A stretch of DNA of 64,000 bases, from the NCBI GenBank assembly GCA_950295325.1, contig OX485805.1, forward strand, positions 26,029,501 to 26,093,500. The letters are read 5' to 3'. The first letter of the stretch is position 1; the number at the start of each line of letters is the position of its first letter. Shown piece after piece: positions 3,765 through 32,840 of this stretch. The translations under genes were made by a program, and so were the position numbers. The notes beneath the pieces were generated by a model. It did not search any database. It was not told the origin of the DNA and saw nothing but the letters and a program-made list of their open reading frames with translations. This DNA comes from Polytrichum commune (Eukaryota > Streptophyta > Polytrichopsida > Polytrichales > Polytrichaceae).

Positions 3765-3826
<62 letters not shown>

Positions 3827-5329: not shown

Positions 5330-5337
5330 CTCATCAT
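5330..5337. other. 8-bp target-site duplication, left copy (CTCATCAT)
   Basis: CTCATCAT immediately precedes the left inverted repeat of the giant element and recurs immediately after the right one (32833-32840). The unoccupied paralogous site at 60638-60645 has a single copy. Eight-base duplications are the rule for hAT transposition. Confidence 0.85.
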
Positions 5338-5355
5338 CAGTGTTCAAGATTGAAG
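5338..5355 (+). repeat. Left terminal inverted repeat of the giant hAT element
   Basis: CAGTGTTCAAGATTGAAG, identical over 18 bases to the inverted sequence at 32815-32832. The CA...TG ends are typical of hAT elements. It is followed by three CCCTTCAA motifs (about 5365, 5384 and 5413), likely subterminal transposase-binding repeats by analogy. Confidence 0.85.
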
Positions 5356-5596
5356 TCTTCAATGCCCTTCAAACGCGATTTGGCCCTTCAAAATATACCT
5401 CTCTCAAAACAACCCTTCAAAATGCAACCCCAAACTCAAAATGAAAACTTCACTTGACGTCTTCAAAATTTTTACACCCGTCAACACTGTAGCGCTATAG
5501 TGACGAGGAGGTCGTTGTACATGGTAACTTTGGGAGGTTGAAGAACCCACATGGTACAAGGATCTAACTTCTCTTCAGTTCCAATTTTTCATTCAC

Positions 5597-6472
5597 ATGC
5601 TAGCTGATATATTATCAGAGTTGAATAAGGTCAATCACAAGTTTCAGTTTGATCTTGTAGATATCACTAGCATAGCTTCTACGATTGATGTAACAATCAG
5701 CTTGTTTCGTAGACACTATCTGGGTGTAAGTTTTGGCCTGACAACCAAACACCTAGGAAAGTTTCTCCGCGAGGTGGTACCCAATGGGCAGATATTGTAT
5801 GTTGATAGTTTTGGGTGTGAAAAAATGCATATCTTGCATTATGATTCCATGCCCGAGTGTGACGTAGGAGGCTCATTGGAGGCATGCATCATGTTGGGGA
5901 GGCAGTATGTGCAGAAGATCATCGATTCACTCAATGATCGATTTCCTGACTTGTCCATTTTCAATGCGGCCCGGCTTTTTAGCCCGAAGCACTATCCCGT
6001 AGATGAATTGGACAGAGGGACATTAACGGAACAATGGTTGAACCGGTTGGTGACACATTTCCGTTGGAGCGATGACCTTGTTAATCAATGCAATGCGGAA
6101 TTGCTAGAATTCGTGGAGATGTTATGTTCCGTTTGTGAACGCCGAAGTATGCAAGAAGCTTGGGTTTTTTGTGGCAATGACCGGGAGTTCATGATTAATT
6201 GGCCAACTATGATGTCGCTATGGCAAGCCATACTTGTGATCCCAACTAGCACTGCTGTTTGTGAGCATGGTTTTTCAAAGCAAAATTGGGTTAAGAGTGA
6301 AAGGAGAACTAGACTCAACCTTGACACACTAGATGCTTTAATGAGGGTTAGTCTAAATGGGTTAGGAGTTGAATTCATGGATTGGGATAGTATTTTTGAA
6401 TCTTGGAAAATTGGCACAAGAACCAACAAGCGTAGGGCATTATCACTAGAAGAGGTGGAGTTAGATGGTTGA
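5597..6472 (+). CDS. hAT transposase, C-terminal fragment
   Basis: A 291-residue frame starting at an ATG. The C-terminal part (about residues 205-255: W-Q-A-I-L-V-I-P-T-S-T-A-V-C-E-H-G-F-S then a charged stretch) matches the hAT dimerisation region, whose usual signature is LW...P.S....ER.FS. Here the usual ER is EH. The N-terminal half resembles the region before it in ZNF862-like hAT proteins. A complete hAT transposase is usually 600 residues or more, with a BED zinc finger and the first catalytic aspartates upstream. Only 260 bp separate this ATG from the element terminus, so those parts are missing. It is probably inactive alone. A related frame lies at 44103-44903. Confidence 0.8.
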   Translation: MLADILSELNKVNHKFQFDLVDITSIASTIDVTISLFRRHYLGVSFGLTTKHLGKFLREVVPNGQILYVDSFGCEKMHILHYDSMPECDVGGSLEACIMLGRQYVQKIIDSLNDRFPDLSIFNAARLFSPKHYPVDELDRGTLTEQWLNRLVTHFRWSDDLVNQCNAELLEFVEMLCSVCERRSMQEAWVFCGNDREFMINWPTMMSLWQAILVIPTSTAVCEHGFSKQNWVKSERRTRLNLDTLDALMRVSLNGLGVEFMDWDSIFESWKIGTRTNKRRALSLEEVELDG

Positions 6473-6588
6473 TTCTTAATTCTTCACATTGTATTGGAAG
6501 CATGCACCATATAAATCATGCATAAGTTTAATATGAGTTTTTAATATTTTATTTCTATATTACTGAATTGACGTCTTGAATTTGAACT

Positions 6589-6920
6589 AAACACTATATT
6601 AAACATTTCGGGACTTTCGGGAGTCCCAAAGTGAAGATTTTTTTACATTTTGGGGACATGGGAACATATTTATTGCTCCCAGGAACATGCAACTAGCTTG
6701 TGGGAACGTGGGAACAATGAATTTAGACCATGTGAATGCCAGATGCGCACGTGGGAACCTATGTATGGGAACGTTAAAGCGAACGCATAAACGCTCTATG
6801 GGAACGTGGGAACGATATATGGGAACGTTGGGAACGTTCTATGGGAATGCGGGAACGCTCTATGGGAACGTATGTGCGCACTGTGGAACGGGGGAACAAG
6901 AAGACATTTTGTGGCTACAT
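6589..6920 (+). repeat. Left subterminal region: end-like motif and GGGAACG repeats
   Basis: AACACTATATTAAACATTTC followed by GGGACTTT at about 6589-6617 also occurs, inverted, at about 32726-32755 next to the right terminus. From 6660 to 6900 the motif TGGGAACG and variants recur more than ten times. Two similar motifs (GCATTGGGAAC, inverted) lie near 32665-32685. Open frames across this interval are by-products of the repeats. Confidence 0.6.
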
Positions 6921-7389
6921 GGGAACGGTGTGTGGTCGCGCCAGGGTAGTGTGGTTTGCAAACGTGATAGAAGGGGTGTTTGTGGTGTGCACAGTGATAG
7001 ACCGAGGGCTCATTAATACAAGTAAACCCAAACCCACATCCAAATACAAAGGATAGACCTTGCATTACATACTTCAAAGTTCAAATTACAACACTTCACA
7101 TTAGATAAATGAACCCACCCTCTATAATGCTGGTGGTTTCCATTAAGAGTTGCACGGGTACACCGTGCCCACAATGGGGTTCCATTTAGCTGGTCATAGT
7201 GTTGAAATCAACAAAAATTGCACCCACATGTCCGAGAGGAGCCATGATGGTCTCCCATCGAGGAACCACCCCAAAAAAATTAGTACCAATCATTGGAGTA
7301 TTTGATGTGGTGTCTCACATTGTCAAGGAAATCACATCTAATCATGAATCATTGTGTGACGACTACGATGTGGGTTTTCCAGTCTCGCA

Positions 7390-10300
7390 TTACGAGGAAG
7401 GGTTGCCCCGAGCTCCCCGTCTACCAGTTGCACGGCCACGACCTCGAGTTCCACGTCCACCCCCTACATTTCCACGTCCACGACCTACTCGTCGCGCACT
7501 CGGCACATCAACGTCCTCCTCAACCGCCATCCCTCCGCGCTCTTGCGCAGAACAACGGCGAAGGCTGTCTTTGGCAAATTCAATCTGCTCTGGTGGAATA
7601 GTAATCTTAAGGGGCTCAACATCTTCATGTGCAGGTAGAGGCCATGCTGCCAAGATGCAGTCAATTGGTTGCCAGTCGGGGATGGAATATTTCGAATCGG
7701 CTTTCCACTTGAAGTTCGTGTTGGAGTCCCAACCATGGTATTTCTTTGTTATGTCTCTAGCAGTTGAAGTGGGAGTGAACCATTGTACCAGAATCTGATG
7801 GGGATGGTCCCCAGTGACGTTCAAGTTTGGTGGACACAAAGCTCGGCACACCCAAATGGGTCTATCAATATCTTGATCTTGGGGTCGAAGAATGAGGAAA
7901 TGCCCCTCATGCACGTTGTCGGCAATGCGGAAAGCCGGTGCAGGTCGAAGGTTAGAGGGGCCCACATAATGGTCATCTGGTTGGTGTTCCTCACGAAGTT
8001 CACCAGTACTCATGAAAGGATGTGCGTCCCTTTCGATTCGGGAGGATGGCCAGAATCCCTCCTGGAGTGCCAATCCCGCAGTGTACACATTTGTGAGGGG
8101 TGCCCGTAATGCCTCCAGTACCCCAATCCAGTATTGTAAAAGATGTGTTTGTGAGCCCCTATATGCTCCGGTCATGTCATGGTCACATATAGATTGCCAG
8201 TAGTCAACAAACCCTTGCAACCCAACAAGAACATCGTCCAGTTTTGCCATTTCTTGAGGTTTAGCAGGGTAAGGTTCCCCAGGTGGGAAAACTGGCTCCC
8301 CCTTTATGTTGGATTTCCACATCAATATGCCATCCTTGGGCAACCATTCATCATGCGTACTAAGCACCTTGTAATGCATGATGGGCCAACCATCATCCCG
8401 TACAACAAATTTGAATTGTTGGGCTTTCGTATGGCCAATGAGTTTGTCTTGGCCATCAGGAATGTACTCACTAACAAAAGCCCTCCAATCTGGAAGCTCC
8501 TCTATCATATGTGGGATGATAGGGACCTTCTCCATGTCCATGTATGATTTCATGAGCAAGGGGATAGTGGGGTAATCATGTTCACGCAAGTCCATACTCC
8601 ATCTACCAAATGAAGCATCAATGTCGTCATGTGTATGACCAACTAAAAGGTAAGACACGTGGACCTCCGTGAATATACCTTTGGCCGTGAGCATGGACCA
8701 AAATGCCTTCACATATCTACACTTGTTGTCCTTCCAACAATTATCGAGTTGAACATGCAAAACGGGTGGAAGCAAGACAGCTGGAATAGGCTCACTGGGT
8801 GGAGGTCGTAATCCTGACAAACATACATCACTCCCATGAAGAACAACACGATAAAGCGGTGACCGACCCGCACCATGGAATAGCATGCGAGATGATGAAG
8901 CCGGGGGCTGTTCCAAATCGCGAAGAAGCCTCGCAAATGAGCCCACAGTATGGTTGCAATCACCAGGATACAAATCCAATGCATAATGAGCATATCTCTC
9001 ATCTCCATGGCCATGAGCCATCATGCCTGTCACGGAAAGTGGTAGTTTCGTGAACATATCAGTGTCTTTGTTCTTGTTAGCAAAGCATGGAGATGCAGTT
9101 TTGCCATGGTCCATTTTGTCGTGAATGATGGTCAAAACCTTGCGCGGATGCTCAATGGACAACGCTCTCATACAACGGTAAGCATTACGAGCGGATTCTT
9201 GCTGTGCCTGGTGTTTCTCCAACTGCTTGGAAAACCCGGTGTGTGCGGCAGAACCTTTAACATGTTGAAGAATAATAGCCATAAGTGAATCGCATTTCCC
9301 ACAGCGAGCAAAATTGTCCCCTGCTCTTTTTGTCACGTAGTGCTTAAAATAATTCTGTCTTATTTGGCTCAGAGTCGAAAGAGAGATTGGTTGCAACCCA
9401 CATTTGTCATTCACCTGAATATCATACCACATACAACATTTAGACAGCCACAGAAATGAGAACACCTGGATTGAGGCAATCACTAATAACACATTGAAAA
9501 TGGACTAAGTGGAACATCGGGAGCCTACTAACCTGGTTGATTGTAACTAAAAATTTCTTCCATTTTGTGCCGCGAGGCAAGACCATCTCCACTACTCGAG
9601 TACCATTAGGCAAAGTGCGGGATTTATGAGGCATCATGTCCGCTTTGTCCTCTAAGAGGTTGGAAAGAGTGGCAGTGGCTTGCTGAGTGGACACACGATA
9701 CCGTTTGGTGTTCAAGTTCCCATGGTCTCGTGGTCGCACCCCACAATTGAACTCTTGTCGATTTCTGTAGAACGCGGTTTTTGAAATCACAAATATGTGC
9801 CTCCATGCGATTAGGCAAATATCACGTCCACTAAGTGTTACCACATTCGTATGCCCCCCCGGAAGTGGATGTACTTGTCCGTGGACCTCAAGACGTTTTG
9901 CATGCCTCATCCTTGTGGAGCAATCATAAAATTCAGTTCGAAGAGCGAGAGCCTCATCTCTAGGAAAGAATCTAAGGCACTCGCGATCACAACACAAAAC
10001 TGCAGATAGTTGTTGTATGCTTGCATTGGTTAGTATTTGGGATTTTTTCGTTGGCTTACGACGCTCTGGTATCCTGGATGTTTCATATGCTCTCTTCCCG
10101 TCCTTCCTTCGCTTCTCCAACAACTTGGTTTGTGCCCGTAATCTGTGGCCACTAACAAGGAGATGATGTGCCAGAGTGCAACCACCGTGGAAAACACGAG
10201 AGATTGGCCACGCCCTCAAAGCAAACATGGCCCCCATGTCCATCATGCCATGAATAGGCTCCATTATTAGTACACCAACGTGATCAGGTCCCAAACATTT

Positions 10301-10583
10301 GTCTTTCACGCAGTCAATTGGGTTTACATTACGGCAAATTCCTTTTGCCATATTGTGTCCATGTTCATTCACAAGCATAATAGGCTTGTTCACCCAATCA
10401 TCCCTACGAAGTCCACTGCAATTCGGGTCAATATCTTCAACCGGAACAGTTTCATCTTCCGAGAATATTGCGTCGGAAAGGGATGACCCCTGCACAAACA
10501 CTTCATTAGTAAAACATATTCCAACAAACAATGTGAAACATCTTAGTTTAGAAAACCACCTCTGTGGTAGATTCCGCATCCAT
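7390..10583 (-). CDS. DUF7869-like protein of a mobile element (spliced)
   Basis: Proposed exons: 10583-10560, 10489-9533 and 9414-7390, all joined in phase 0 by GT-AG introns of 70 and 118 bp, giving about 1001 residues. An alternative acceptor would start exon 3 at 9465. Start: ATG at 10583 (MDAESTTE); an upstream acceptor at 10598-10597 suggests a 5' UTR intron. The middle contains CC-D-x-E-C and repeated basic/Cys motifs. Near residue 550 is LDNCWKDNK and near 583 VGHTHDDIDASFGRWS, the hallmark of uncharacterised eukaryotic proteins carrying DUF7869, often found in repetitive DNA. The acidic pattern D-N...D-D-x-D is compatible with an RNase-H-like nuclease, but that is inference. The tail (about 970-1000) is RG-rich. 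The palindrome cluster at 10808-11228 lies upstream. Reading frames are intact, which suggests recent function. Confidence 0.7.
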
Positions 10584-10807
10584 GTGCTCGGCCAATCTGC
10601 ACAAGAACACTTGCGCGGTCAGTGTTACAACTTAGGCCTGATATAGCTTCACGTACCATTCGCTATTGAATCATATTAGTGCTTGTACTCGCAATCACCA
10701 AACGTTTAAACTAAAAACACAATACTGTAGATATCCTAAAGAACGAAAACTTCATCCTGTATTATCTGCCTTGTGACCTCACTAGATATCACCTATATCA
10801 CCTGTTA

Positions 10808-10901
10808 CAATATGTCGTGTATGTGGCGCGGGCATGCATCCCACTTTCACTCGATCGAGTGAAAGTGGGATGCATGCCCGCGCCACATACACGACATATT
10901 G
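10808..10901. repeat. 94-bp perfect palindrome containing P copy 1
   Basis: Every base from 10808 to 10854 pairs with 10855 to 10901, with no spacer. The centre is the shared 26-bp palindrome P (10842-10867; half-site CACTTTCACTCGA plus its complement). The outer 34-bp arms (ATGTGGCGCGGGCATGCATC and beyond) are found only here. It lies about 225 bp upstream of the DUF7869-like start codon. Confidence 0.95.
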
Positions 10902-11097
10902 GGCCCTTCATGCCTTTTCTTTTCTCAGAAAATCCGGTCATAAATAGATGTTACCCAATCTATCCCACCCGATTAACACCTACCTCCCTCTATACATATT
11001 ATTTGTGTCGATAATAAAAACGTCGATCACCAAACAATCACATCCTCTCCCCAGAAACTAATCACATGCTCATCCCCATGCAATCGACTCGCCAGCC

Positions 11098-11228
11098 CAC
11101 TTTCACTCGATCGAGTGAAAGTGGTGGGCCTGCCAGCGCCCGCGCCACAAAACTTTCACTCGATCGAGTGAAAGTGGGCTGGCGAGTCGATTGCAGGCCC
11201 ACCACTTTCACTCGATCGAGTGAAAGTG
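11098..11228. repeat. Cluster of three P palindromes in nested inverted arrangement
   Basis: P copies at 11098-11123, 11152-11175 (24 bp) and 11203-11228. The sequence left of the first (GCAATCGACTCGCCAGCC, from about 11080) reappears inverted to the right of the second. The sequence right of the first (GTGGGCCTGC) reappears inverted to the left of the third. Between the second and third copies the two flanks are joined directly. The cluster sits upstream of the DUF7869-like gene, possibly in its 5' intron or promoter. Confidence 0.9.
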
Positions 11229-11229
11229 T

Positions 11230-12280
11230 TGGGCCTCCCAACGCCGGTTGTTCGGGCCGTACTGTACGGACTGCAGGGATGGGTACAGGGCCCTGCAAAT
11301 ATGGTGCCGCTGCAATGCTCCATGCATATGGAACGGCACATTGAACAGCGCCTCTTCGATCAGGTGTTTCTTGGTGTTGTGTAGGACCGAACCTTGTGTG
11401 AAATTGATCCCTGGAAGGGATAGAAAGAAGAATGTTGTGGTGTTGTGCTCCCTGGCACAAAGGGCGACAAAAGAGGGTTCGAGTGTGCTCCTTCCAGGCT
11501 TATATAGTCGGGTGTAGCAGAATTGGTGGGAGAATAGTGCCCTAATCCAATTTTGAAGGTTCCCTCCCTTTCGTTTTAGGCCGTCACAGATCCGTATGCG
11601 GACGGCTTTTGATGCCTTTGGGTGGGTTTTTACATGCACCTTGATACAATTGTGTTAGTGGGATTGTTTTACATTATTTTCGGCATGATGTGTTTAAGCC
11701 AATCCGGTCCACCCCCAATCCTGTAATGATAGTTAGCACATCGCCCACTCTTGGGCATCACTACTATGAGCGCGTACTACCCGCTGGTACGCCTTTGGAT
11801 CCAAGTTTGATTGATGAGATGAAAACACGCCAGAATGTGGTCCTATCAACAGGTACCCTCGGCCCACCACTTCCATCGCACTTGTGGCATCACACCCTGC
11901 TATTGAGGCGCGTACAACGTTGAGGTACTCACAAGCGCTCATTGCAACCTACATTTGTGCACCGGCTTCAAGGTTGAAGATATTTGCACCCCTAGACCTT
12001 GAATCTCTTGAAAAGAAATGGATGTCCCCAACATGTCATAACAATTACAATTAAATCATCGGCCCTCATCCCAACGTATCTATGTATGCTTGTAGTATTG
12101 CAGATAAATTGCCATGCTCCCAATGCTATCGGAGTGGTTTATGGCACCCCGATGAGTTCTCCTTCCGAAATTCATATTAACTATTTCAATATTAATCCAA
12201 AATTAATTATTATGTGGGTGGGTCCAATTTCCAATTACAATGTGCTTTGCACATCTCTCAACATTGACATAATGTCTTAA
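11230..12280. other. No supported gene
   Basis: This stretch is moderately GC-rich up to about 11640, as expected for the promoter or first exon of the DUF7869-like gene on the minus strand. Open frames on both strands run through the palindromes and match nothing I recognise. From 11690 it is anonymous. Confidence 0.4.
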
Positions 12281-12520
12281 TAACTTCCCAATAGAGGTTA
12301 GTAACTTCCCAACTTCCCAATAGAGGTTACTAGTAACTTCCCAATAGAGATTAATAACTTCCCAATAGAGGTTAGTAACTTCCCAATAGAGATTAGTAAC
12401 TTCCCAATAGAGGTTACTAGTAACTTCCCAATAGAGATTAGTAACTTCCCAATAGAGGTTAGTAACTTCCCAATAGAGATTAGTAACTTCCCAACAGAGG
12501 TTAGTAACTTCCCAATAGAA
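12281..12520. repeat. Minisatellite, about 12 copies of a roughly 20-bp unit
   Basis: Tandem copies of TAACTTCCCAATAGAGGTTAG with small variants (GAGATTAG; an extra ACTAG in two units). The apparent minus-strand protein made of NLYWEVT units is translation of the repeat. Confidence 0.95.
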
Positions 12521-12777
12521 GCAAATTAGGAAGGGGCTTATTAACCCCATTATAGTAACCCCATTGGGCTTATGGGGTTCAACAATTCATAAATTAAATT
12601 GGAAGAATCTGAAATTTGCGCCTCCAACTTCATCTGAGGATGCCGTCTCGAATTGACCCTAGACCCTTCTACCCTATTTAACAATTAGTCCAATACCCTA
12701 AATGAAAGGTGAAAAGTGCATGTGTGGGTTAATATTAGTGAAGATTGAGTAGCCTCTGGAGGCCCATCAGCCTACTT

Positions 12778-12806
12778 AAACCCTAAACCCTAAACCCTAA
12801 ACCCTA
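12778..12806. repeat. Interstitial telomere-like repeat (CCCTAAA)4
   Basis: Four exact units of the plant telomere repeat, C-rich strand on top. A G-rich-strand tract lies 2.6 kb to the right. Confidence 0.95.
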
Positions 12807-14200
12807 TACTCGAAGTACCACTTTGGTTTGCATTTGAAGCAAATAATGAATGGGCTACCATGATACAAAACCAATCCCAAATATATTTGATATTCATATT
12901 AAGTGCTATGTCTGAATCGGTTGCTTCCACCATTGGTCACACTTTTTACATTATTTTGTTAGGTCCAATAGCTAAGTCATAGTCTAAGAACTCTAAAATG
13001 ATTTGAATCAGCTGATCAAACTAGTCAATTTAAAGCGTTGTCTACATTTGAGCACGTCGTAAGTTAATCTCATCCTAACACGTGTTCATTTAGTGTTCCC
13101 TCATAACTGCACGTATTACAAGCATACAACTCTTGGACAATTGATCTGCGTTAGTGACAAATATAGGTGTTTAATTAAGAAGCGCGAACATAAGGCCCTC
13201 AAACCTTAATCACCATGTGTCCAAGTGTCTTCGTGGCAATAATGCATCCAAATAAATGCATGGCTTGGACCCTGTAGGAAGCAGTTACAGCACTGGCCAT
13301 TCCCGCAAATTCCTGTGAGCATGCCACGTGTCACATATCTTCACATCATGTCTTCAAAAGTTCACGCCCAAGCAGCTGCTCTTGCAATGGTCGGAGTCAA
13401 TTGTTGAAAGTGCCTATATTGTTCATAATTGGGAGTTCACCCATTGGATCTCCCCTTTATGACCTCTCCACTTTCCTTCCATCCACACTCATAACCTTAG
13501 TACGTGTAATTAGGTTGCCTTCGCAAATGGGTAAAGTTGTGTTGCCTCTTACATCGCCTCTTTACGCAAGCAACTTTCCATAGGTCAAACTCGGATCAAA
13601 AACCTTATATTAAGTTTTTTGGTTCATTCCTATCACAATTAAAGTCCATACAAAATTTGTGTATTTTGTTGTACTGGTAATAAATAATCAAGTAATGTGA
13701 CATGCCAATAGATTAGTGCAAGACTACCTAATTGCCAATATTGGTGTAGGTAGATTCATTGGCATTTATTTGAGCTACTAGTCTAAGAGACAAATTGAAT
13801 CCAAACTTAAGTTAGAGTTAGAGCAAACCAAGAGCTACCTCAATTGACATGATGGAAACGGGGATTTGAGTATATTTGGATTATGCATTAATTTTGGACA
13901 ACACAACTGCCTAGTAGTATATGGCGTGCACTAGATTGGAAAACTACATGAAATTAATATAATGGTGGTTGGTAAATATGGCATACATTGTCAAACATTT
14001 GAAGTTGTCACTGATTGTTGTGTTGTTGCTTTAAATTTGATATGTTTGATATTTTTGTCCTGGGCCCACAAGTGCACATCCCTTATTATTTTAGGGTTTA
14101 CGGTTTGGCCAAATATACTCAAGTGTCAATTTGTTATCCTTGGTGTCAACTATTCAATATGCACACATGTAAATGTCAAGTGCAAAGCTTGTAGATAGCA
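12807..14200. other. No supported gene
   Basis: AT-rich DNA without a recognisable coding segment or repeat family. Confidence 0.4.
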
Positions 14201-14234
14201 ATTATTGTTCCCCATGAGCTTCAAAATTTTGCAC

Positions 14235-14480
14235 ACGGCTTTGATCTCAATGTTGATTTGCATTCAAGATATGTGGATCATGATCATAATGTAGCGAGGA
14301 CCACCTACGGCGAAGCTCACTAGTGATGCTAAACGTCATTCATCATTGTTGTCTAGTAACTTTTAATTGGACAACTCTTTACATTTTGGTGTTAATGAAA
14401 GTCTTTAAGTTAGTTTTCAAAAGTCTTTAAGGAATTTAATATATAAGAAGACAATTGATAACTTGGGTGGGCAACACCAA
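14235..14480 (+). pseudogene. Degraded pogo/Tigger transposase tail
   Basis: Nucleotide similarity to 40405-40660: GCTTTGATCTCAATGTTGATTTGCATTC..., GTGATGCTAAACGTCATTCATCATTGTTGTCTAG, GACAACTCTTTACATTTTGGTGTT and GGGCAACACCAAAGATCTTTGAA follow in the same order. Stops and frameshifts interrupt it. It shows that the giant element acquired secondary insertions or carries old ones. Confidence 0.6.
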
Positions 14481-15430
14481 AGATCTTTGAACTCTTCTTT
14501 CAAATAGTTCTTGAGAATATATGTATTTGTTTTGGAGTTATCAATTATTGGATTGGACAATCTATATTATTAAATATAGACGGTGTCAATATACTAAAGA
14601 CGGGAGAACAGTAGAAACATTTCCGCACTATCCCTAGTCCCTTCGGCAACTTGCCTATAATGTCTACCGTTGACTTGGCAACAGGCCTGGACTATGCAGT
14701 GAATCCCTCAATTGGCCGTAGTCCCCTCAAATTCACCCTAAGCTTGAACCGGTAGGTTTCCGACCTCAACAGTTTCACATGTTACGGTATGATACCCCAA
14801 CCCGAATCATTGTGAACTCAATTGGAAATATCCACATTACTGCCAGCAGGCTCGTATCTAAACCTCGGTACTAGCTGTACATTGCCGCATAACCCTGTCA
14901 TAATGGCTCTTCATGTGTGCATGCAATTCATGCTATGCCTCCACATATTGTCTTGATTTGATTGAAAATTTAACATATGTTGGTTGTCCCTTGTACAGTT
15001 AAACAGGGCCATAGTAGGCCACCCAGATTATAGGTAAACCCACAATAAGTCACAAATGAATTAAGGAATTCGCCTAGGGAAAGTTTCCTAGCAATTAAAC
15101 TCAACACAAAATGCCATGCATGCAAAACCAAGGATTTCGTAATACATTCAAAGACATAGTCATCGTATTGTTTATGTTGTCATTCATAGGTCCTATTATA
15201 CTTCCATTTGCAAATTGTAAGGTGAATACAGCTGTATGAATTGTGCATATTTACTTCTATTCATGTTTGTGTAATTTGGCTGCGCAAAAAGTGGTCCTAC
15301 TGGATCCTACTGTTTATGGGATATACATACACTTAGCGAATAGGTTTAGTTATTGCAAACAATACCTGTTGAGTTTTGGGTACTAGGGGATTGTTGTCAC
15401 TCCCACTCCAGTGCGCAATAATTGTGAACT

Positions 15431-15490
15431 TTTTAGGGTTTAGGGTTTGTGTTTTAGGGTTTAGGGTTTGGGGTTTGGGGTTTATGGGTT
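15431..15490. repeat. Telomere-like tract (TTTAGGG and variants)
   Basis: Two exact TTTAGGG pairs interrupted by GTGT, followed by TTTGGGG variants. The orientation is opposite to the tract at 12778. Confidence 0.9.
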
Positions 15491-18290: not shown

Positions 18291-18539
18291 TGATAGTTGA
18301 ATTAGTTGGTTAGTTGTCCAAGGTCTGCAAGACTTCTCGGCCTCTAATATGCATCCCACCTTCCGTCACATGTGTTCACCTAATATGTGTCTATGAGGGT
18401 TTCGGCTTGTGTGAAGTAATTTGGGATGTTAGTTAAGTTCTACGGTTAGGTGAGCTGGTCTAGGTACAGAGTAAGTGTCGACTTAAGCTAAATTAGTTCA
18501 ATTGGTTTGCAGTGCAGGTGTTATTCGTTGTGTTGTTGT

Positions 18540-22000: not shown

Positions 22001-23060
22001 TAAAACACCTCCAATAGTCTTGTGTGCCTCACACTAACTAATAAACTAACACTTGCTTAGCTAGCATCTACTAACATTTGCTTAATAACTAGCATCTACT
22101 AATATTTGCTTAGCTAGTTGTTTTTACTAGCTAGCACATTTTTTCTACTTTGCTATCTTCTAGCACTACTTAGTTTCATTTTGACCTTCCTTCTTCTAGG
22201 CTAAATGCTAAATGAACTAATTTTTCCTAAATTCCCTATCAATTCTAACTTTTAATGCTAACATTCTAACTAAAAGTGATCCCGCAGAGTGGTGGACCAC
22301 TCAAAGGGTTCACACCCCACCTTATTTTTCACTCGGAAATTAAACTCAAGGTTTTGATGATGATTTCAAGACAAAATTGCTCAGAAAAGAAATATTTGGA
22401 CTACAAGGGAACGCTAAATTGTCGTCCAAAGTATTCCAATGTGCTACTCTCACTGTCATAATGTAGATTTTTTAATTAATATTTTTGCTTAAACATGTTA
22501 CTTATGTTGATGAATTGTATCATATGGGCAATTAGTAGGCTAGCCTTGACACTTTGAGACCCCGCCGGCATCTAGTTTAGGCCCTTCGCAAATTGTGCAC
22601 TTGACACTAAACATCATAAACGGTGTAGTACCTTCTTACATGTGGTGAAATATATATGTATATGAATATGTATGTGTATATGTATAATTTTTGAGCTGCA
22701 TATATATAGGTCCATTCAACTGAATCGTTTTTGAGAGTAGAGATTATCAACGTTTCAATACATAGTACACTCTTTTAAACGTGTCTTCTTGATGTTTGCT
22801 CTTTGATCCTCACTGAACCCCATACCATTCAAATATAGGGGTTTCGGTTTATGTACCAGCCAAGCGGTGGCGGTGGCCGTATCATATCTAAATTGAACCA
22901 TTGTGATGGAATCAAGCCATTTGGACGAAAGCTCATTTGGTAAGTTAAGTGAATGATAAGTGAAAGCACCAACTAACATCATACAATTTGCAATCAACAC
23001 CCTCTACAGTTAGTAGGAAGTACCCTTCCTACTAACCCACACCCTCCTTAATGAGAACGG
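19096..23060. other. No supported gene; anonymous repetitive DNA
   Basis: Three ACCCTTC motifs at 19315-19375 recall the giant element's subterminal repeats. ACACTAAACACCATAAAC near 19390 recurs as ACACTAAACATCATAAAC near 22605, so the 3.2 kb between may be a later insertion. Open frames at 21643-22017 have low complexity and match nothing I know. Confidence 0.35.
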
Positions 23061-23099
23061 GTGAAACTACACCCTAGCCTACTCGTCTGCCCATCATGG

Positions 23100-24610
23100 T
23101 CCGGCGTCTAGGATCTGGGCCGTCCATTATTGACGGCACAATCCTGACCATCGGCACTTGGGCGAAGGGACGTGGCCGTTCCCAATCTTGGGTCCAGAAT
23201 GACCTCCCCCGCTCAACACTTTCATTGTGTTTTCTCCTCTTCGATCCTAGTGTTTTCTCCTCTTGGTTCTTCCGTTGCAACATTGTGCACCCTCTCCCTC
23301 TCCGCACCCGGCTCCAAGTGTATTATGCATTTGCCTTCGTCTATGCTCCTTGCTTCATTGAAATTGCTGATCTAGTATGCACCTTGCACCTTGCTTCACT
23401 GCCATCCAGTTGATCTCTTCTAGTATGCACCTTGTTTCATTGAAATCTGGTTGATATCTTGTAGTATGCACCTGGTTCACTCCAATGTGGTTGAGCTCTG
23501 CCTCTAGTATGCACATTGCTCAACAATCTGCATCTTCCTTTTTCAATTCACAATCTGCATCATATCTCCCTTTTCGCACATTCCTCCACCCTCCTGAAGT
23601 GCCATCCACACCTGGGATCCACTCAGTATATCACAAAGAGCATCCTGGTTATGTTTATTTCATTGAATGCATTTTGCTTGACGTTTTTCTATACATTAGG
23701 CACCCTGAATTCTTATTAAGAAATCTTCTTTTGTTTGTTCCATCTCCATGGATTCGGGATGTTCACCCTGATACTCTTGATTTCTAAAGAGTATGCACCT
23801 GGAGCCTCCAAGTGTATTAAGTCAATTTTCATGTTCCACATTGTTTGTTTGCTATGCTTCATTGAAATCTTCACCCCCAACATCCTAAATTTGTTCAGTG
23901 CAATCGGCATCTTGAATTTTCCTTCGATATGCTCACTTTTTGAGGTATTTACAATTGGAACCTAATCACATTCCGGTTTTTCTTTTTCAATCCAGGCCCC
24001 TAAATCCTTGCAGCATAAGCATTCAGATTAGCCATATTCCTGTACACAATATTAAATAACCTCCATCTTGATCCATGTAGCAAGACATGGTATTGGTTTC
24101 TACAGTAATCAGAACTTATGTAAAATCCCCACTCCTGCTCTTATTGTTGATTCCAAGTGAAGGTCGTGCAAGCAGAGACTGAGTAGCAAATATACATCCA
24201 TATTCTTCACACAAATCAGGTACACTTCCCGGCTTGCATTGAATGTCAAAGACATAGAAATAAGAAGTTTACATGCAATTCCTTCAGTCGAAGTATATTT
24301 CAAGATATAGTGGTGGGAAATATCCCCGTTCACACCTGACTGTACGGACACTCTTCAGGGTTGGAGGCGCTGGGCCACTTTCACTCGATCGAGTGAAAGT
24401 GGCCCAGCGCTGGCGTGCTGGCTGCCTGAGAGCCATGGCTGGCCACTGGCCACTTTCACTCGATCGAGTGAAAGTGGACCAGCGCTCGCGTGCTGACTGC
24501 CTGCTTGTGCCATGGACAACCATGGCTCACTTTCACTCGATCGAGTGAAAACATTAATGTTGAGTTGAGTGATGCATTAATGTGGTTTGAAGATTGACTT
24601 ATTTCACATA
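23100..24610 (+). promoter_or_regulatory. Upstream/leader region of the ParB-like gene, with diverged repeats
   Basis: This region precedes the acceptor at 24618-24619. At 23360-23530 and again near 23790, units beginning AGTATGCACCTTG and continuing with TTCATTGAAATC... recur at about 60-70-bp spacing. No upstream coding exon is convincing, so it probably holds promoter, 5' UTR and a 5' intron. The last 240 bp contain three P palindromes. Confidence 0.4.
24367..24550. repeat. Three P palindromes in tandem units
   Basis: P copies at 24376-24401, 24451-24476 and 24531-24550 (20 bp). The first is extended to a perfect 44-bp palindrome (24367-24410) by the arms GGCGCTGGGC. The first two copies begin a tandem unit of about 75-80 bp: after each comes GG-C/A-CCAGCGCT-x-GCGTGCTG-x-CTGCCTG and, further on, GCCATGG. 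The cluster lies just upstream of the ParB-like gene's first coding exon, before its splice acceptor. Confidence 0.9.
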
Positions 24611-24619
24611 CCATTGCAG

Positions 24620-27600
24620 GAGGCATGGACAAAGTTGTTTTCTGGACAGATATAGTTGGAGTCAAACAAACAGGACCAACTGGTCCTCAATGGGTAATTA
24701 GAGACTCTCATTTGCAGAAGTGGTCGCTGGCCATTAACAAGAGAAACAAATCTTCAGGGTACGAGCTTATATTTACGTACAAGGTAAACAATAGTTGGAT
24801 TCCGAACCCTGGAAATCCAATTACCATCGCTCATGTGGGAGCGAGGGACAGGCTAGAGGTTTCGGTTATGGAGGGGGTGGAAGAGAGAATTTTATCAATT
24901 GATTGCAAGAAGCATACATTTCTCTTGGTGCCATTTTATGAGTCCATGGCCTCATTCCCTTCGAAGGAGAAGGAAGAGATAGAGAAGGTGATATCATCTG
25001 GAATATCCAAAAGAGCCATAAACTTTGTGTTGGAGACACTGGAAGACATCAACAGTAGAGAGGCAGCTACACGGGAAGAATCAAGGCAGCAAAAGAAGAA
25101 GCAAGCCGAGGTTATACTGAAATCCAAGGCCGATAAAGGTGGCAGCTCTATTGGACAACAGCCGAAGGCAAAGAAGGGGAAAAAACCTGAAGAGCTAACC
25201 GTATCACTGGAGACGGAGAGAAGGAAGCCTCACGAGGTGGTGCCCCACATTTCTACAGATTCTCAGAATACGGAGAGGGATGCTGGGGATGCCGGGAGTG
25301 GAAGGAAAAAGAAAGCAAAGAGGGCTTTGCCACCCGAGAAGAAATCAAAGCAAAAGAAAATGAAGCCCGACGTTGTTATGCATGAGGAAACCCCACTGGT
25401 CTTGACTCAAGCGGAGAAGGGTCGAGTTATATCGCAAGGTCAACAACCCAGCCTTGAGGAAGCTGCTCTGGATAGGAAGAAGTTTTTGCAACTTTTTGGG
25501 CACATTTATCCATTCGGCGCAGAATCGATATTCCGTGTACCCATCAAACAAATGAAGGGCGCAAAAGCTTATCAGATTACGCGGCCTTTGGATCCAAGTG
25601 GGGTGAACCTCATGAAGAACTACCTTATCCAAACCCTGCCTACTTGGCCTCAGCACAATCTGTGTTTGATGCCGAAGTTCAAGAAAGGTGAGACATGGCA
25701 AGAAGGCATGACATGGGATGACATCAAGAACATGCAATTCGCCATAATCAATGGGCAACATACTGTAGCCGCATCTACGGAAATAATTGCTCATCGAGAT
25801 ACCGATCCGAAGCTCAAGGAGAAGTTAAAGGTGTGGCCCTGCACAATTGTGTGGACAGAGGATCCGAGCATGACCGTCAGGCTTTCATATACATTGAACA
25901 ATTCAAACTCGTTCAACAAGTTCACACCGATATGGACTACACAAATTCTGTATTGTCGCAGGGTTTGGGTGAAGTTGAACAAGCCTGAAAAGCAACGTGC
26001 GAACGCCTCTGAGGCTACACAGGACCCTGAGAAAGCATTGGCTTGGAAGGTATGTTACTCTGCTCCCTTAATTCATCAGACCTCTCTCAAGTGTTGACAT
26101 GGCCTCACACCACTTTCACTCGATCGAGTGAAAGTGGTGAGGCGTACCTAAAGTGTTGACATAGCCTCACACCACTTTCACTCGATCGAGTGAAAGTGGT
26201 GAGGCGCACCTAAAGTGTTGATCATGCAGGCATTGTAAACCATTGTATCCTAAACCAATGTATCCTATATCCATGATGTGTAGAACTTTACTACCAGCAT
26301 GGAGGCACCATTCACCGCAATCGCAAGAGGGATCACGCATAACGATCTTAAAGCGGAACTCACGTTAATTATGGCCCCTGAGGAAACATCAAGATTGTGG
26401 AAGAAAGTGTTCGTGTCGCACGAGAAGGGCTTATTTATCAACCCGGACAAGCCAGGACGCACATACCTGGAGGATCATGTGGAGGCTCAACAAAAATTGC
26501 GAGCTCGCCACGAGAAGTCCAAGGCAGGAACACCCTTCGTGGAGAAACCTTTCGTGACTAAACTCCTTACAAGGGAGACATTCAAGAGTATGTCAGGACT
26601 CACAAAGCCAGACTTTCACCTGGCAGCGAGACGACTTTTAGAAGGAAGGGGAGAGGACGGCGTTCCTAGTGTCACTCTCAGGCCTTGCAAGAACAGCAAT
26701 GTCGTGACACTGAAGTCATGGTGCAATTTCCGCAAGTGGAAGAATATCTTGCTGCAGGAGTTGGATAAGCGGGATCCCAATAAAGTTGGCTTGTGGAAGA
26801 AGGATGATGAGGGGAATGGGTTCCTGGATCGCGACGTATGGACAAAATTCAAACGGGAGCATGGAGTTACAAAGCCGAAATGGATAAAGCTCTACCAGGT
26901 TGCGACTTCAGAGTGGTTGAACAGGAAGAGGGCGACTAACAACAAGTCCTTACCGGTACAGCCGGCTTTAGACCGATTGCTTCGCGACTGGCTGCAAACA
27001 GATTTCAACGAATGCACAGGGCAAGTGATCACGCGGTGGGTGTCACATAATGCCATTAAGAAACGATTGGTGATTCCCAAGCAAGATTCCAGTGATGTTG
27101 AGTGGATTGAGGGAAACACCATTGCCGCGGGGTTTCTGGACTTCAGGTTCATCCCTGGATGTGTAGATGAACCAATCCCTCCTGAAGTTGTGGAGTCCTT
27201 GGTTAAATATTTGTGCTCTCCGGAATGGACATCAGGGGTGAAATCTGTTCCAGCTTGGATGATTGTCTCCGACTTGCGTAGCCATGATGCCTCGCTCGTA
27301 TTCATGTCGTCGTTTATGCGCAGACATCCCAACACGTTTGTGATCGTCCCGTCGTTCTATTTCCCTTGTCCTGCAGAGGAAATAGCCGACCCCAAAGAAA
27401 TAGTTGGAAAGAGGCAAACCCCTGCGCTCTACATCGACCACCTCATTGTCCCAGATAAATTTCCCAGGTGGAAGGTAATTGCATGTCCAATGCTAGCCCC
27501 GGATTCACGCCGATACAAAGTAAAACCCAAGGATTGGTCTGAGTTGACATATGAAGTGAATCGAGGGGAGCTCAGAATGGAGGTCTATATTAAGTTCTTG

Positions 27601-30600
27601 GAATACATGGGTTCCGCCGGAGGCATGGTTCTCAATCTATTTGGGGGCTTGAAACCAGTTGCTGCAGCGTTGGTGAGTTCCACCTATCTGAACTATCTCA
27701 ATTCGTTCCCTTTCACCTTTTCCCTCTTCCATTTTTCTAACCTCATTGATTTTCCAGATGCACGATTACAACGTTTTTTCCTACATGGATTCGGCATTCT
27801 TGCATATTCTGGACGCGTTGATTCAACGTGTTCGCGTACTTAAGCTGAAGGATTTCGCTGAACAAGCCGAAGATGAAGATGAGTACCAAGCCCACGATGG
27901 CCACATTCACCCTGACCTCAACCCAGATCCACCCTTGCTTTTGGTAAGTATTGCTAATGAATTACTTTCTTGTGTTTATGAAAATCATCGTTTTCTCACT
28001 TCCCCTTTATATGAGATGATAGTTGACATTGTATGGTTGCTACACAGGAGGATGTCGAAGATCGCGAACCGATCGAGGCCATGGACATTGACCGAAACCC
28101 CTCCGATGTGGAAGATCTTCCTGACGATGAAGATGACGAGTCTGTGGAGCCTCCAAGTGAACGGGATACCGACGTCAAGAGCCATGGCGAATCCCCCCAC
28201 ACGTCCCATCACTCGGACGATGATGCCCCTGGCGGTTTGACTCCGTTGGAAGAGCATATGTCGACTGCCTGCGATCTCGGTGCTTCGCCGCTACGAGCGA
28301 AGCAACTTGACTTCGATGACGAAGACCGCGATGACCAAGACCCAGCTGACGATGAAGACCAGGAGGATGAGGACCAGGAGGATGAAGAACACCAAGATGA
28401 GGACCAGGATGTCGAAGAAGAGGATCAGGATGCCCTTGAGGAGGATCAGGATATCCAAGAGGCCCAGGATGTCGAAGAGGAGGTCGAAGATGTCGATGTG
28501 GTTTTGGAGTCCCCTCGTTCTATTCCCGACACCTACCAACCTCCACAGCCTGCTGCACGTAGTCCACAGAGACCCAATACCGCCGAAGTTGGTGCTAGTG
28601 GGTCCATGGACATTCCACAGAGTCCCCTCAGACCCAGTACTGCCGATGTTGGTCCTAGTGGTGCCATGGACATTCCACATAGGAAGTCCTCTCGCTCACG
28701 AAGTCGGTCCTCAACTAAGGATAGGCATAAACGCCGCCATGGTAAGCCCGTGGAGCCCCCACTTACGACGGTTGTTTTGGAACCTCTCATGATGGGCATT
28801 TTGAATAAAAATTTACCAGGCTTACTAACGAGCCTGTTCAAGGATGCCATGGCCCAGGCCATGCCACCCTCTCAAGCCGTGCCCACGCCAATTCCTACTC
28901 CGGCCCCTATACCAGCAAATGCGGAGGTTGTTTTTGTCCCCATTGGTACTGACCCTTCCCAAGATGTCCTTCCTCAAGTAAAGCCAGCTCATGTGGATCA
29001 ACCGGAGGTTGCTGAGAAATCGGCCGAGAAGAACGAAGTGGAAAGTTCACCTGCAGATGCCGGATGCCTGGAGGGGCCTTCACATGATTCCCAGCTTGTT
29101 GAAGATGAGGTAAATATCCTTGACCTATTCTCGCTTTTCCAATTGTTTTTAAACATGCTAGTCACTGAATCTCCGCCGGGATGTTTGATCCAGGTTGGAG
29201 GCCGCGCATCATAATCAAACCACTTGGAGAATAGGAAGCCGTTTGTAGATCGCAATCCAAGGCTGACTAGAGCATTGGACTTAAAAACCTTTAGGACATT
29301 TTAGTTGTAGCCAAACTCACCATGTACTGGGTACTTGGAAGATGTACATTTTACATTCAATGAAATGTGTTTCGTCTATACATTGTCTGCAATGGCTGTC
29401 ATTAACAATGCATGTTCAATTCACAGGCTGGTTTGCAAATCGTTGATTTCACACGGCCAGAATCACCATGTGCAGCAGTCCCGCAAACGGGTGCAGCCGA
29501 AGAGGACACCTCACTTATAGTTGGCCCCATGCAAGCCCCCATTGCCACTACATGTCGAAGTCCAACGCTTGTCGTCACCCCTTTGGACAAAGGGGATCGT
29601 TCACCCCTCTTGCCCATAGGTAGTGACGATGATGTGGTCAAGTCGCCTTCACCCACAGCGGTCCACATTGCTGCCATCAAACCTCTTGCTCTGAAGCAGG
29701 TTGTCATCGAACATTCAGAGCCCGGGCCATCATCTGCAGGCCTGCAACAACCAATATCACCACCTTGTTACTGTACTGCTACCGTGGAGCCAACGGAGCC
29801 TTCCTCTTCTGCAGGCCCTTGCCAACCCGAGGCTCCACATTGTGAGGAGCCTGCTGTCGTTGATGCAACGGAGCCCGCTGTCGTCGATCCAACGGAGCCT
29901 TCATCTTCTGCCGGCCCACATCATGTCAAGAAAGTCGTGGAATGTTGGCCACGCGACGACAGGTTCCCCGACTTTCCCCCTGACAATACAAAAATAGCCG
30001 AACGTCCATTTGAGGCTTGGCGGGCTATGCACGCCAGCCGTTCCGAGGTCACTTGCCCAGAGCTGCGTGTGCGGCCAGCTCTCCCAGTTTGTGTAAGCAT
30101 CGTTTCCCCTTCTCATGGCACTTAGTTTGTGTAAGCTTCGTTTCCCCTTCTCAATAAAATTTCACTTGGTCCACTGGATTTTCTTTTCAATATACCCGGT
30201 TTATTTGTGTCCCAAACATTCATCTCCGCGTAGTTTTGGGTTCAGGGTGGACAAAGTGCGCAAACGACTGTGGATGCGCCCTTCAACCCACACGTTGTTT
30301 ATGATAAACTTTTTGTTTACGCTGACAACTACCCAGCGTACGATAGGAACATCTCTCAAGTTTTCACGAGGGAGATGGGAATAGCGTGTGCTAAAAGACT
30401 TATTTCTAGGGACCCTCAAGACCCTTCAGTAGGACCATCGGATCGCTGGGAATTCAATCCCATAACTTTCGAGGTATTGGTTTCCCAGTTCATAATAACT
30501 TTTAATATTTAGTTCATTATAAACCCCCATATCAATATATGCACCTATTGCATATATGAATGTAAGTTAATGAATATATGAATGTAAGTTATTGAATATA

Positions 30601-31444
30601 TGAAGTTCCACAATTTTCATTAGTTGCAACATTATATGTAATTCGAGTAAAGCAGGAGAAGTTGACAGTGGATTCCTGTCGCCAGGCGCTAGCTGCTGTA
30701 CCCGACCGAAGGTTCATTCTGGTGTTCGATTTGAATGGCATATTTTGTCATTGTATTCCTCGCGGCCGTTCCGCTTTACCCACATGGATGGTGCAAGATC
30801 GTGCGCCAGACAAGGGTCCGGCAATTGTCGGTCCCAAAGCTGTCCTACCTAGACTGGGTTACAAGCAGTTTTGGGAGAGAATGACCCAAATGTTCTATGT
30901 TTGCATATGGTCATCTATGAAAAAGTCCACTGTGGACCTCGTGGTGGAGTTTTTATTCAATGGGATGTCAAGACCTGCAATAGTTCTTGGCCAAGAGGAT
31001 TGCATCACATTCAAAGACATCTGGGACAATGAGATCAGGAACCCCCTAAAGCCAGAATCAATATTGTTCTTCAAGAGTTTAAACAAAACATTTTGGTGGC
31101 CGCCTGTATCTCTTGATTCCGGACGTGTTACTGCCACTATTGAGAACACTGTTCTTGTGGATGACAGCCCCTACAAAGGTGCTTGTAATCCTCCCGGGAA
31201 TGTATTGTTTCCCGATTCCTTCACCACCAACAAACAGGCAACTGCGGATATGAGAGCAGTTCTTCTCCCCTACTTCCAACGTATGTTCAATTCGACAATG
31301 AGCGACGTACGCGATTTTGTGATCACACATAGATTTGGGCAACAGCCGGTCCCGCATAACGATCCAGTCAGGGAGTCACTTATGATGGCCAACAAGCACT
31401 CCAATCGACCCGACTTGCACCCTATAACTGCTGTCCCAAGATAG
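24620..31444 (+). CDS. ParB-like / methyltransferase-like / FCP1-like HAD multidomain protein (spliced)
   Basis: Exons 24620-26049 (ATG 24625), 26305-27672, 27758-27943, 28048-29109, 29427-30092, 30246-30473 and 30656-31444: about 1907 residues, GT-AG introns, all phase 0. The exon 2 start is the least certain; 26299 ATG could start a separate gene. Residues 160-265 are Lys-rich (nuclear signals). Residues 290-440 look like a ParB/sulfiredoxin fold: VPIKQMK, L.KNYLIQ, then INGQHTVAAS (375-384) and WPCTIVW. Residues 820-930 resemble a degenerate beta-class DNA N4/N6 methyltransferase: IVPSFYFPC in place of the catalytic DPPY-type motif, then VLNLFGGLKPVAAAL like the SAM-binding FxGxG motif. 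Residues 994-1130 are strongly acidic, with SR/KR runs near 1210. Residues 1665-1840 form an FCP1-like HAD domain: FDLNGIFCH (D1670, second Asp replaced by Asn) and VDDSPYK (1814). Function is unknown; a chromatin or DNA-binding role is inference. Confidence 0.65.
26108..26198. repeat. Two P palindromes in a 62-bp tandem repeat inside intron 1
   Basis: P at 26111-26136 (perfect to 32 bp, 26108-26139) and at 26173-26198. The whole unit, AAGTGTTGACAT-x-GCCTCACAC plus P plus GTGAGGCG-x-ACCTA, is duplicated. Both lie between the donor at 26050 and the proposed acceptor before 26305. Confidence 0.92.
30086..30150. repeat. Short direct duplication at a splice donor
   Basis: AGTTTGTGTAAGC-x-TCGTTTCCCC followed by TTCTCA occurs twice, 36 bp apart. 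The first copy contains the proposed donor (TGT|GTAAGC at 30093) and the second a possible duplicate donor. Confidence 0.7.
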
Positions 31445-31527
31445 TTAGCATGTAGGGTTTAGGTTAGGGCATGTAAGGTTCATGAATTGTATGGCATGTA
31501 ACATTGTGTATTATATGCTTTGTTCAG

Positions 31528-32327
31528 TTTCCTCCTGCTGGATACACACCATCCACTTCCAAGCGATCGGCATTCGTGTGTCTCACCCCGCGGCATGAAC
31601 ACAACGTAGTACTGGCGTGCCATCCCTTCTCACTCGCCCACGTGGGCGTAGAAGCTATCCGGGTCGCTAACTCTCAAAGTGTGTCACCCCTCGCTGAAGC
31701 AACCCCTGAAGGACAGAGTCTGGTAAATATAGCTCATTTTGTTCACCTGGGAATGTTCTTACCCAAATAAATATTTTGCAAATCTCCTTTTCAATCTCTA
31801 TCTAATCTCCAACATTTGGCGTGGAATGTATGTGCATGTATATGAATGTTGGTGGTATTTGTGGGGCAATAAGTTGGAGAATGTTTTTTGCCTATGTCGG
31901 CCTGCAGGATGTTGACCTAAATATGCTCCCCCCAATGGATGACGGACCACAACCCGCCCATACATTATCCATTATGCGCCCCACCCCTACCCGCGAGTAC
32001 CAAATTGCGCTAATCGAATCGCAAGGCCCTGACTCAAGAGGTGTTCGTCTTCTACGTGCTGGATTGGCATCACTTGGGAAGACTTATGCCCCTCAACCCG
32101 CCATGACGAAGCTCCCTTCCACCATTAACCATGTGGAGGGCGTTGACACCAGTATGTGCACCCTCGCAGATGCTTCAACACCTCCATGCGGAACTTTGGC
32201 CATCGTGCACCCCGCTGCTACACGGGACTACCAAATTTCACTCATCGAATCTCAAGGCCCTAATTCAAGGGCAGTTCGACTTTTGCGGGCTGGATTGGGT
32301 GACCGTGGAAATAATCGTATCGCTTGA
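31528..32327 (+). CDS. Downstream exons with internal repeat (possible C-terminus of the ParB-like gene)
   Basis: Two segments with good exon borders: 31528-31722 (65 codons, after TTGTTCAG, ending at GTAAAT) and 31908-32327 (139 codons plus stop, after CCTGCAG). Both are in phase 0, like every intron of the preceding gene. The second contains a duplicated module of about 36 residues: P-T-x-T-R-E-Y-Q-I-A-L-I-E-S-Q-G-P-D-S-R...RLLRAGL and P-A-A-T-R-D-Y-Q-I-S-L-I-E-S-Q-G-P-N-S-R...RLLRAGL. The preceding HAD exon ends in TAG at 31442 without an obvious good donor. Either these exons belong to an alternative transcript, or the TAG is a disabling mutation, or this is a separate gene whose start I cannot see. 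Confidence 0.45.
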
Positions 32328-32487
32328 CGAGGCAGGACTACAATTGAGCGACCTGTAGAAGCCACAACATGTATTAAATACTATAGTTGATAATGCGTCC
32401 CCTTTAGCCACATATCGGTGGGGACATATATATAGCCAAACATGTATGTAGACGCCTAAGAATGAGGCATTCGACATATGCTTCAGG

Positions 32488-32493
32488 AATAAA
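32488..32493 (+). terminator. Possible polyadenylation signal AATAAA
   Basis: AATAAA about 160 bp after the stop at 32327, in the orientation of the cargo gene. The assignment rests on position alone. Confidence 0.35.
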
Positions 32494-32725
32494 GATCTCA
32501 ATTCAAACAGTAATTGTTCTACAAACTTGGTGTATGGGTTACCAATTCTTTTCTTTCGAGTACAAGGCTGTAGCCTCCACTCACCCACTCATTTGAACCG
32601 GTCAAAGTAGTGTTGCAATCAACTGGGAGTCCATTAGGGGTCACTGCTACACAACATAGGATTTGTTCCCAATGCGTTCCCAATGCGATCTCAATGGACA
32701 CTCCAGAAGTCCCATATTGACGCCA

Positions 32726-32832
32726 AAGTCCCGAAATGTTTAATATAGTGTTACTAGCCCTTCAACCGAAGGGCTCAAATTTTAGAGCCCTTCAAAATGA
32801 AACTCATATGAGGGCTTCAATCTTGAACACTG
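32726..32832 (-). repeat. Right end of the giant hAT element, an inverted, deleted version of the left end
   Basis: Read inward from the right, the sequence is the 18-bp inverted repeat, then GAAGGGC motifs, then AACACTATATTAAACATTTC followed by GGGACTTTG. The left end has the same two blocks, but with the transposase frame between them (5338-5355 and 6589-6617). AGCCCTTCAACCGAAGGGCT (about 32757-32776) is a near-palindrome made of two subterminal motifs. Confidence 0.75.
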
Positions 32833-32840
32833 CTCATCAT
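32833..32840. other. 8-bp target-site duplication, right copy (CTCATCAT)
   Basis: Direct repeat of 5330-5337. The following GAATCAAAGCC...CTAGGCATACCCTTG (32841-32875) continues the duplicated block seen intact at 60646-60679. Confidence 0.85.

Follow-up and report, generated by a model that had tools for sequence, protein, structure and literature searches.

A supposed 27.5-kb hAT transposon of Polytrichum commune reads as a giant DUF7869-type element nested in a small hAT

We analysed a 64,000-nucleotide stretch of DNA from the moss Polytrichum commune (assembly GCA_950295325.1, contig OX485805.1, positions 26,029,501 to 26,093,500), referred to here as the window, in which an earlier note had described positions 5338-32832 as a single 27.5-kb hAT transposon carrying large genes. 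From the sequence we conclude that this structure is a nested insertion, and that the cargo genes belong to an inner transposon and not to the hAT. In our best explanation, to which we give a probability of about 0.85, two insertions would have succeeded one another, the first of a small hAT and the second of a giant DNA transposon that encodes a DUF7869 protein and a conserved accessory module made up of gene B and a NIF/FCP1-type phosphatase gene.

The outer boundaries were found as the earlier note had placed them. The 18-bp inverted end CAGTGTTCAAGATTGAAG lies at 5338-5355 on the + strand and, as its reverse complement, at 32815-32832, once per strand in the window, and the 8-bp target duplication CTCATCAT is present at 5330-5337 and again at 32833-32840. 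Inside these ends we observed a second inverted pair, a perfect 28-bp repeat AACACTATATTAAACATTTCGGGACTTT at 6590-6617 (+) and 32725-32752 (−), which bounds an element of 26,163 bp (6590-32752, + strand) with the 4-bp target duplication ACTA on its left (6586-6589) and right (32753-32756). This duplication had been read as 3 bp (ACT) from the window alone and was replaced by ACTA after the reading of 17 other pairs of ends. Copies that pair the hAT right end with the interior, for which the earlier note had proposed a genome search, were not found elsewhere: when the last 401 bases (32432-32832) were compared with the window's own genome (407.8 Mb), the whole query was covered by the window alone among the best 40 of 874 candidates, with 20 partial matches to the inner part only (to ~32752) and 19 to the terminal 80-base hAT part only. 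The break between the inner 321 and the outer 80 bases falls at the boundary of the 28-bp inverted repeat. Excising 6590-32752 plus one ACTA leaves a hAT of 1,328 bp, composed of the left 1,252 bp (5338-6589, +) and the right 76 bp (32757-32832, +), which is identical at 1318 of 1328 positions, with no gaps, to a hAT that stands alone on a different chromosome (L001, C1:65690119-65691446); the two are identical across the insertion point. Since the interior is delimited by separate ends and a separate duplication, the inner and outer parts occur apart, and an insert-free hAT of the residual length exists, the claim that a hAT carries the large genes does not stand.

We take the giant element to be a genuine mobile family. 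With up to three mismatches, its 28-bp end has 132 matches in the genome (70 forward and 62 reverse), compared to none for a reversed-pattern control. One hundred of these matches were listed, and they gave 21 facing neighbours within 60 kb. The 18 pairs chosen for analysis, the window included, are 16 of these 21 together with two C2 pairs that combine the ends lying outermost in a palindromic cluster. Five facing neighbours were left out: one pair each on C1 (2.5 kb), C2 (26.6 kb) and C6 (56.3 kb), and on C2 also two inner pairs of 3.6 kb. The chosen pairs are 15.7-31.5 kb long (median 22.6 kb) and 15 of them have a perfect 4-bp duplication, with the AA of the AACACTATATT ends lying within the element in all 15; the 2.5-kb pair on C1 also has a perfect duplication, CTAA. 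Gene B is present in 17 of the 18 pairs and the NIF gene in every one. All 17 gene-B loci at ≥93% identity (among the best 83 of 1001 candidates) and all 21 NIF loci at ≥97% (among the best 145 of 1068) lie inside chosen pairs. The giant gene-bearing mobile unit of the earlier note is real in this respect, as a DUF7869 element with AACACTATATT ends and a 4-bp duplication and not as a hAT.

Compared with the copy at C6:2450809-2473281, the window copy is 97.9-99.7% identical in most long blocks and 94.5% in one repeat-rich block. The main difference consists of two insertions absent from the C6 copy, one of 1.4 kb (14027-15391) and one of 2.8 kb (19476-22312), the latter LTR-like (long terminal repeat), with TG...CA termini and a 5-bp CCCCA repeat by eye. 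Within the element, a subterminal array of 11 TGGGAAC motifs lies at 6659-6926 (+), and two motifs in reverse orientation lie near the other end at 32665-32682. The palindrome ACTTTCACTCGATCGAGTGAAAGT occurs in tandem arrays near gene A (11099-11245), before gene B (24373-24550) and between the two main gene B frames (26089-26221), and is possibly a candidate binding site for a protein of the element. Three of the chosen pairs (C2:23193592-23215580, C2:23261352-23283298 and C6:4957769-4973465; L008-L011 and L032-L033) have two outward-facing right ends, palindromic 20-bp flanks that are the same in two of them, and two NIF copies each. The two C2 copies are near mirror images with the inner 3.6-kb pairs. 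Such copies may have arisen by aberrant transposition, or they may reflect a palindrome introduced during assembly.

Gene A, the presumed transposase gene (7390-10618, − strand), comprises a 704-aa frame at 7390-9504 that matches DUF7869 (PF25273, E = 1.5e-39) and a 392-aa frame at 9440-10618. DUF7869 was scored at 150 places in the genome, the best 150 of 1491 candidates, many of them with long open frames, and no match was obtained in any of 14 control genomes. The domain is present in all four copies read end to end, namely the window, C6:2450809 and two copies of a second family described below. The motifs HDKMDxGKTA, QxDNCxKDNK and GHTHxDxDAxFG are conserved in gene A; the HDKMD motif was seen in the two of four frames that reach that region, and the QxDNC and GHTHxDxD motifs in all four. 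This presence and these acidic motifs suggest that the DUF7869 protein is most likely a DDE/RNase-H-type transposase that would cut and paste the element. AATATAGTGTT ends occur also in a third DUF7869 family, whose frames are 502 aa long, while a family with 692-aa frames ends differently. Gene B was not seen in the 10-kb stretches of these two families, in which no protein search for it was made. Beside one 502-aa element, a frame at 9133-9906 (−) of L051 resembles a Ulp1-type protease by eye and has no Pfam match at E ≤ 0.01.

The accessory genes lie on the + strand, divergent from gene A. Gene B has two main open frames, at 24598-26097, with the conserved motif F.II[ND]GQH..AS that is ParB-like by eye only, and at 26284-27714, followed by an acidic low-complexity frame at 28027-29214. 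A 282-aa frame at 30596-31444 contains a NIF/FCP1-type HAD phosphatase domain (PF03031, E = 6.2e-10), and a last open frame at 31806-32327 contains, by eye, two copies of a ~40-aa repeat. Gene B and NIF were delimited as open frames and may be one gene or two. Searches with gene B against Pfam, PHROGs and solved structures gave no significant match (best E = 0.083). A ParB-like identity, seen by eye and suggested also by PMC12477816, drew no support from the profile searches, all of which were negative or non-significant, and we do not assign gene B to that family; hhalign against three ParB domains from bacterial-looking contigs aligned the motif at a non-significant E of 0.36. An N4/N6 DNA methyltransferase reading was rejected, with no significant match of frame 2 in Pfam, PHROGs or PDB (Protein Data Bank) and a non-significant hhalign comparison with two methyltransferases. 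Pattern scans of viral contigs found no relatives of gene B frames 1 and 2 or of gene A, and a pattern scan of genome contigs with frame 2 only found no prokaryotic relatives. The canonical HAD motif is DxDxT. In the NIF frame, which reads DLNGIF, the position of the second catalytic Asp is occupied by Asn.

CACTA elements have termini that start exactly with CACTA/G, generate 3-bp duplications and encode a Transposase_21-type transposase, and Sola elements have 4-bp target duplications. It is quite possible, at somewhat below even odds, that the giant element simply belongs to EnSpm/CACTA or Sola1 and that DUF7869 is the Pfam name of that superfamily's transposase. The sequence CACTA does occur within the ends, and the 4-bp duplication agrees with Sola1; the size and the opposite-strand accessory gene also resemble the Sola1-1_Ec32 family as described in PMC12477816. 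Membership of CACTA is opposed by ends that begin AACACTA, by a duplication of 4 bp in 15 of the 18 pairs and in all three older two-ended copies described below, and by a Pfam scan of 10 frames that gave no Transposase_21 match, DUF7869 being the only domain seen in the presumed transposase. A case for a new superfamily is possible but unproven. More tentatively still, we consider a superfamily that has yet to be described as one, defined by a DUF7869 transposase, AACACTATATT ends and 4-bp duplications and abundant in this moss, whose large members would carry, as an ancient and conserved module, a new DNA-binding-like protein and an FCP1/NIF phosphatase by which the transposon would manipulate host transcription or silencing.

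Giant DNA transposons with accessory genes are already known in brown and red algae, and the moss element looks like a new form. According to PMC12477816, the KDZ, EnSpm and Sola-1 giants of Ectocarpus range from >10 kb up to >30 kb and contain nested unrelated insertions and extra genes, and in the 21.5-kb Sola1-1_Ec32 family an accessory gene and the transposase gene lie on opposite strands. The moss element is like these giants in size, nested insertions and extra genes, and like Sola1-1_Ec32 in having its accessory gene opposite the transposase. In contrast to the Ectocarpus accessory protein, which combines ParB-like and DNA methyltransferase domains, neither domain was detected in the moss element, which has a NIF-type phosphatase instead. 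Its transposase is matched by DUF7869, whereas the main text of PMC12477816 contains no DUF-named domain. The red alga Chondrus crispus has En/Spm (CACTA) families of 16-20 kb with 4-5 open reading frames, as cited in PMC6431247; the moss element shares the size, the several frames and CACTA within its ends, but differs in its AACACTA start, its 4-bp duplication and the lack of a Transposase_21 match in the frames scanned. The 14-kb hAT ToxhAT (PMC12506042) is unlike the structure in the window, where the outer hAT has no cargo of its own and the large genes lie in the nested element. A literature search, with most subscription journals and Repbase outside it, found no paper naming DUF7869 and no description of an element with this gene set.

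To place the accessory genes in a wider context, we compared diverged copies. Eight older gene-B loci are about 50-67% identical in matched blocks, and seven of them retain the order of the two main frames of gene B, NIF and the last frame; the acidic frame has no match in L045, and in L046 the 3' part is absent within the stretch fetched. Of four older loci tried, three have both ends; these elements are ~23.5, 24.2 and 23.7 kb long and are flanked by perfect duplications (GGTT, TTTG and CTTA, respectively). At L048 the gene-B-side end was not found in the flank fetched. The NIF search also revealed a second family, present in many copies: ~65 of the 145 rows (the best 145 of 1068 candidates) have 33-36% identity, mostly with 261-aa frames. 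The two copies fetched have AACACTATATTCGTTAATCGG ends ~16 kb (16.1 kb) apart, one with a TAAA duplication and the other with none, and the same gene order as the window element, DUF7869 and then, divergently, gene B and NIF. Relative to the window, the gene B frames of this family match at E = 3e-24 and 2e-18, NIF is 34-35% and DUF7869 50-52% identical; overall, its gene B and NIF proteins have 24-35% identity to those of the window element.

Substitution patterns were derived from four sequences per gene. When frame 1 of gene B is compared with that of the window, the proportion of silent differences (pS) is 0.79-0.80, near saturation, and that of nonsynonymous differences (pN) is 0.23-0.27; two older copies compared with each other give a dN of 0.048 and a dS of 0.39. 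The pN/pS ratios of 0.15-0.33 for gene B and 0.28-0.46 for NIF show that purifying selection acts on gene B and, to a lesser degree, on NIF. Diverged families preserve these genes as a set, with unchanged order and under purifying selection; gene B and NIF therefore most likely form a transposon-encoded accessory module and are not accidental cargo. We regard it as improbable that they are passengers captured once from the host and carried neutrally. NIF/FCP1-type HAD proteins are normal host proteins, the DLNGIF motif has Asn for the second catalytic Asp and some older copies contain stops, all of which would fit passengers; purifying selection and a gene order that is the same between families at only 24-35% identity do not.

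Taken together, our proposal is that a 1,328-bp non-autonomous hAT would have inserted into CTCATCAT and that a giant DNA transposon of ~22 kb would then have inserted into this hAT at ACTA, duplicating 4 bp, two steps that we regard as established. The 1.4- and 2.8-kb insertions are further additions to the window copy, as judged against one other copy. The DUF7869 protein encoded near one end would act as the transposase. For the accessory genes, the guess that we favour is that gene B would bind the TGGGAAC subterminal repeats and would, jointly with the phosphatase-like protein, promote the element's own transcription or its escape from silencing.

Several observations weigh against parts of this account. 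DUF7869 has no function assigned in Pfam and no significant match among solved structures (best E = 0.93), and single-sequence structure predictions reached pLDDT confidence scores of 34 (DUF7869, a worthless model) and 33. Linkage to DUF7869 was read in four end-to-end copies, and the company of gene B was shown for a minority of the 150 DUF7869 places. As gene B matches no family, its role is a guess. Some older copies have one or two stop codons in the gene B or NIF frames and are on this ground taken to be decaying. As for the ends, three of the 18 pairs (two on C2 and one on C6) have inverted flanks in place of a duplication, the 26.6-kb facing pair on C2 has no duplication, and the 56.3-kb C6 pair stands outside the duplication counts.

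The outer element was further characterized at its target site. Short inverted ends of hAT elements are of the CA.TG type, and the outer element combines such ends (CAGTGTTCAAGATTGAAG) with an 8-bp duplication and a hAT dimerisation domain. Its open reading frame at 5528-6472 matches in Pfam only the C-terminal dimerisation domain of a hAT transposase (PF05699, E = 9.4e-06); the 1,328-bp hAT is non-autonomous. Across the genome, among the best 40 of 876 candidates, a 263-base query from the left end is matched over its full length at 98-100% by 16 left ends, counting the window's own, and at 83% by a 17th. Two further small hATs have perfect 8-bp duplications, GGTCCAAC at L002 and CTCCCAAC at L003, and the solitary L001 has a 9-base target repeat ACTAGGTAT rather than 8 bp. 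A second C-terminal fragment of a hAT transposase, separate from the small hAT, lies at 44103-44903 (+) of the window (PF05699, E = 5.9e-08).

A paralogous site without the hAT, with a single CTCATCAT, is present at 60638-60645; the same 8 bp also occur at two further + strand places in the window. The earlier note had both flanks matching this empty site. The site and the left flank hold, with 5036-5341 matching 60345-60649 at 83% over ~300 bases, but the right flank matches only from 32833-32875 to 60638-60679, in 43 columns including the duplication, with 31 identical bases beyond the 8-bp site (score 48). Among 2000 random window positions used as a control, the top two scores were 46 and 48, which may include the site itself, and the next was 24. 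Farther right, 33000-33866 matches 58613-60046 and not the sequence beyond 60645, which shows a rearrangement of the right flank with respect to the paralog. A hAT insertion at CTCATCAT with flanks rearranged farther out is well supported. The segments 811-5341 and 56117-60649 of the window are the two diverged copies of a segmental duplication and match at about 81-97% by block; the second copy supplies the empty site and contains the region to which the hAT right flank 33000-33866 maps.

A single 27.5-kb hAT with captured host genes would explain why perfect hAT ends and an 8-bp duplication enclose the whole stretch, but we consider it refuted and give it almost no weight: the interior is bounded by ends and a duplication of its own and recurs at many loci where there is no hAT, and L001 has exactly the length of the hAT that is left once the insert is removed. 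An assembly artefact near 5338, 6590, 32752 or 32832 is just as hard to credit, as the window contains no N and both element types recur elsewhere with the same boundaries and target duplications.

Other features of the window and the genome were also recorded. An apparently intact L-type lectin receptor kinase of 746 aa lies at 49637-51877 (−) (Lectin_legB, E = 2.9e-54; kinase, E = 3.1e-44), adjoined by a 282-bp tandem triplication at 49054-49885. The protein of a separate repeat family (L065, C1:9656500-9666499, at 4727-6457, and L066 on C4) is 577 aa long, has an N6/N4 DNA methyltransferase domain (PF01555, E = 1.1e-07) and is unrelated to gene B by hhalign. The genome search with N6_N4_Mtase gave 83 matches at E ≤ 1, of which five pass the cut-off, three of these on small contigs. 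ParB_N was found at four places only, on the small contigs C10, C12 and C23 (L067-L069, 20-61 kb), which encode ParB and ParB-methyltransferase fusion proteins, with an intein-like insert by eye in L068, and resemble bacterial or phage contaminants in the assembly.

In conclusion, a false giant hAT is replaced by a well-supported family of giant transposons in a plant genome, for which recent copies are numerous, the ends are defined and a clean empty site is at hand, and the DUF7869 domain gains a likely function. If the module of gene B and phosphatase does serve the transposon, selection can keep the accessory genes of such giant elements far beyond a single family. The moss element also offers a concrete system for testing the roles of such genes in subterminal repeat binding, counter-silencing and action on RNA polymerase II.

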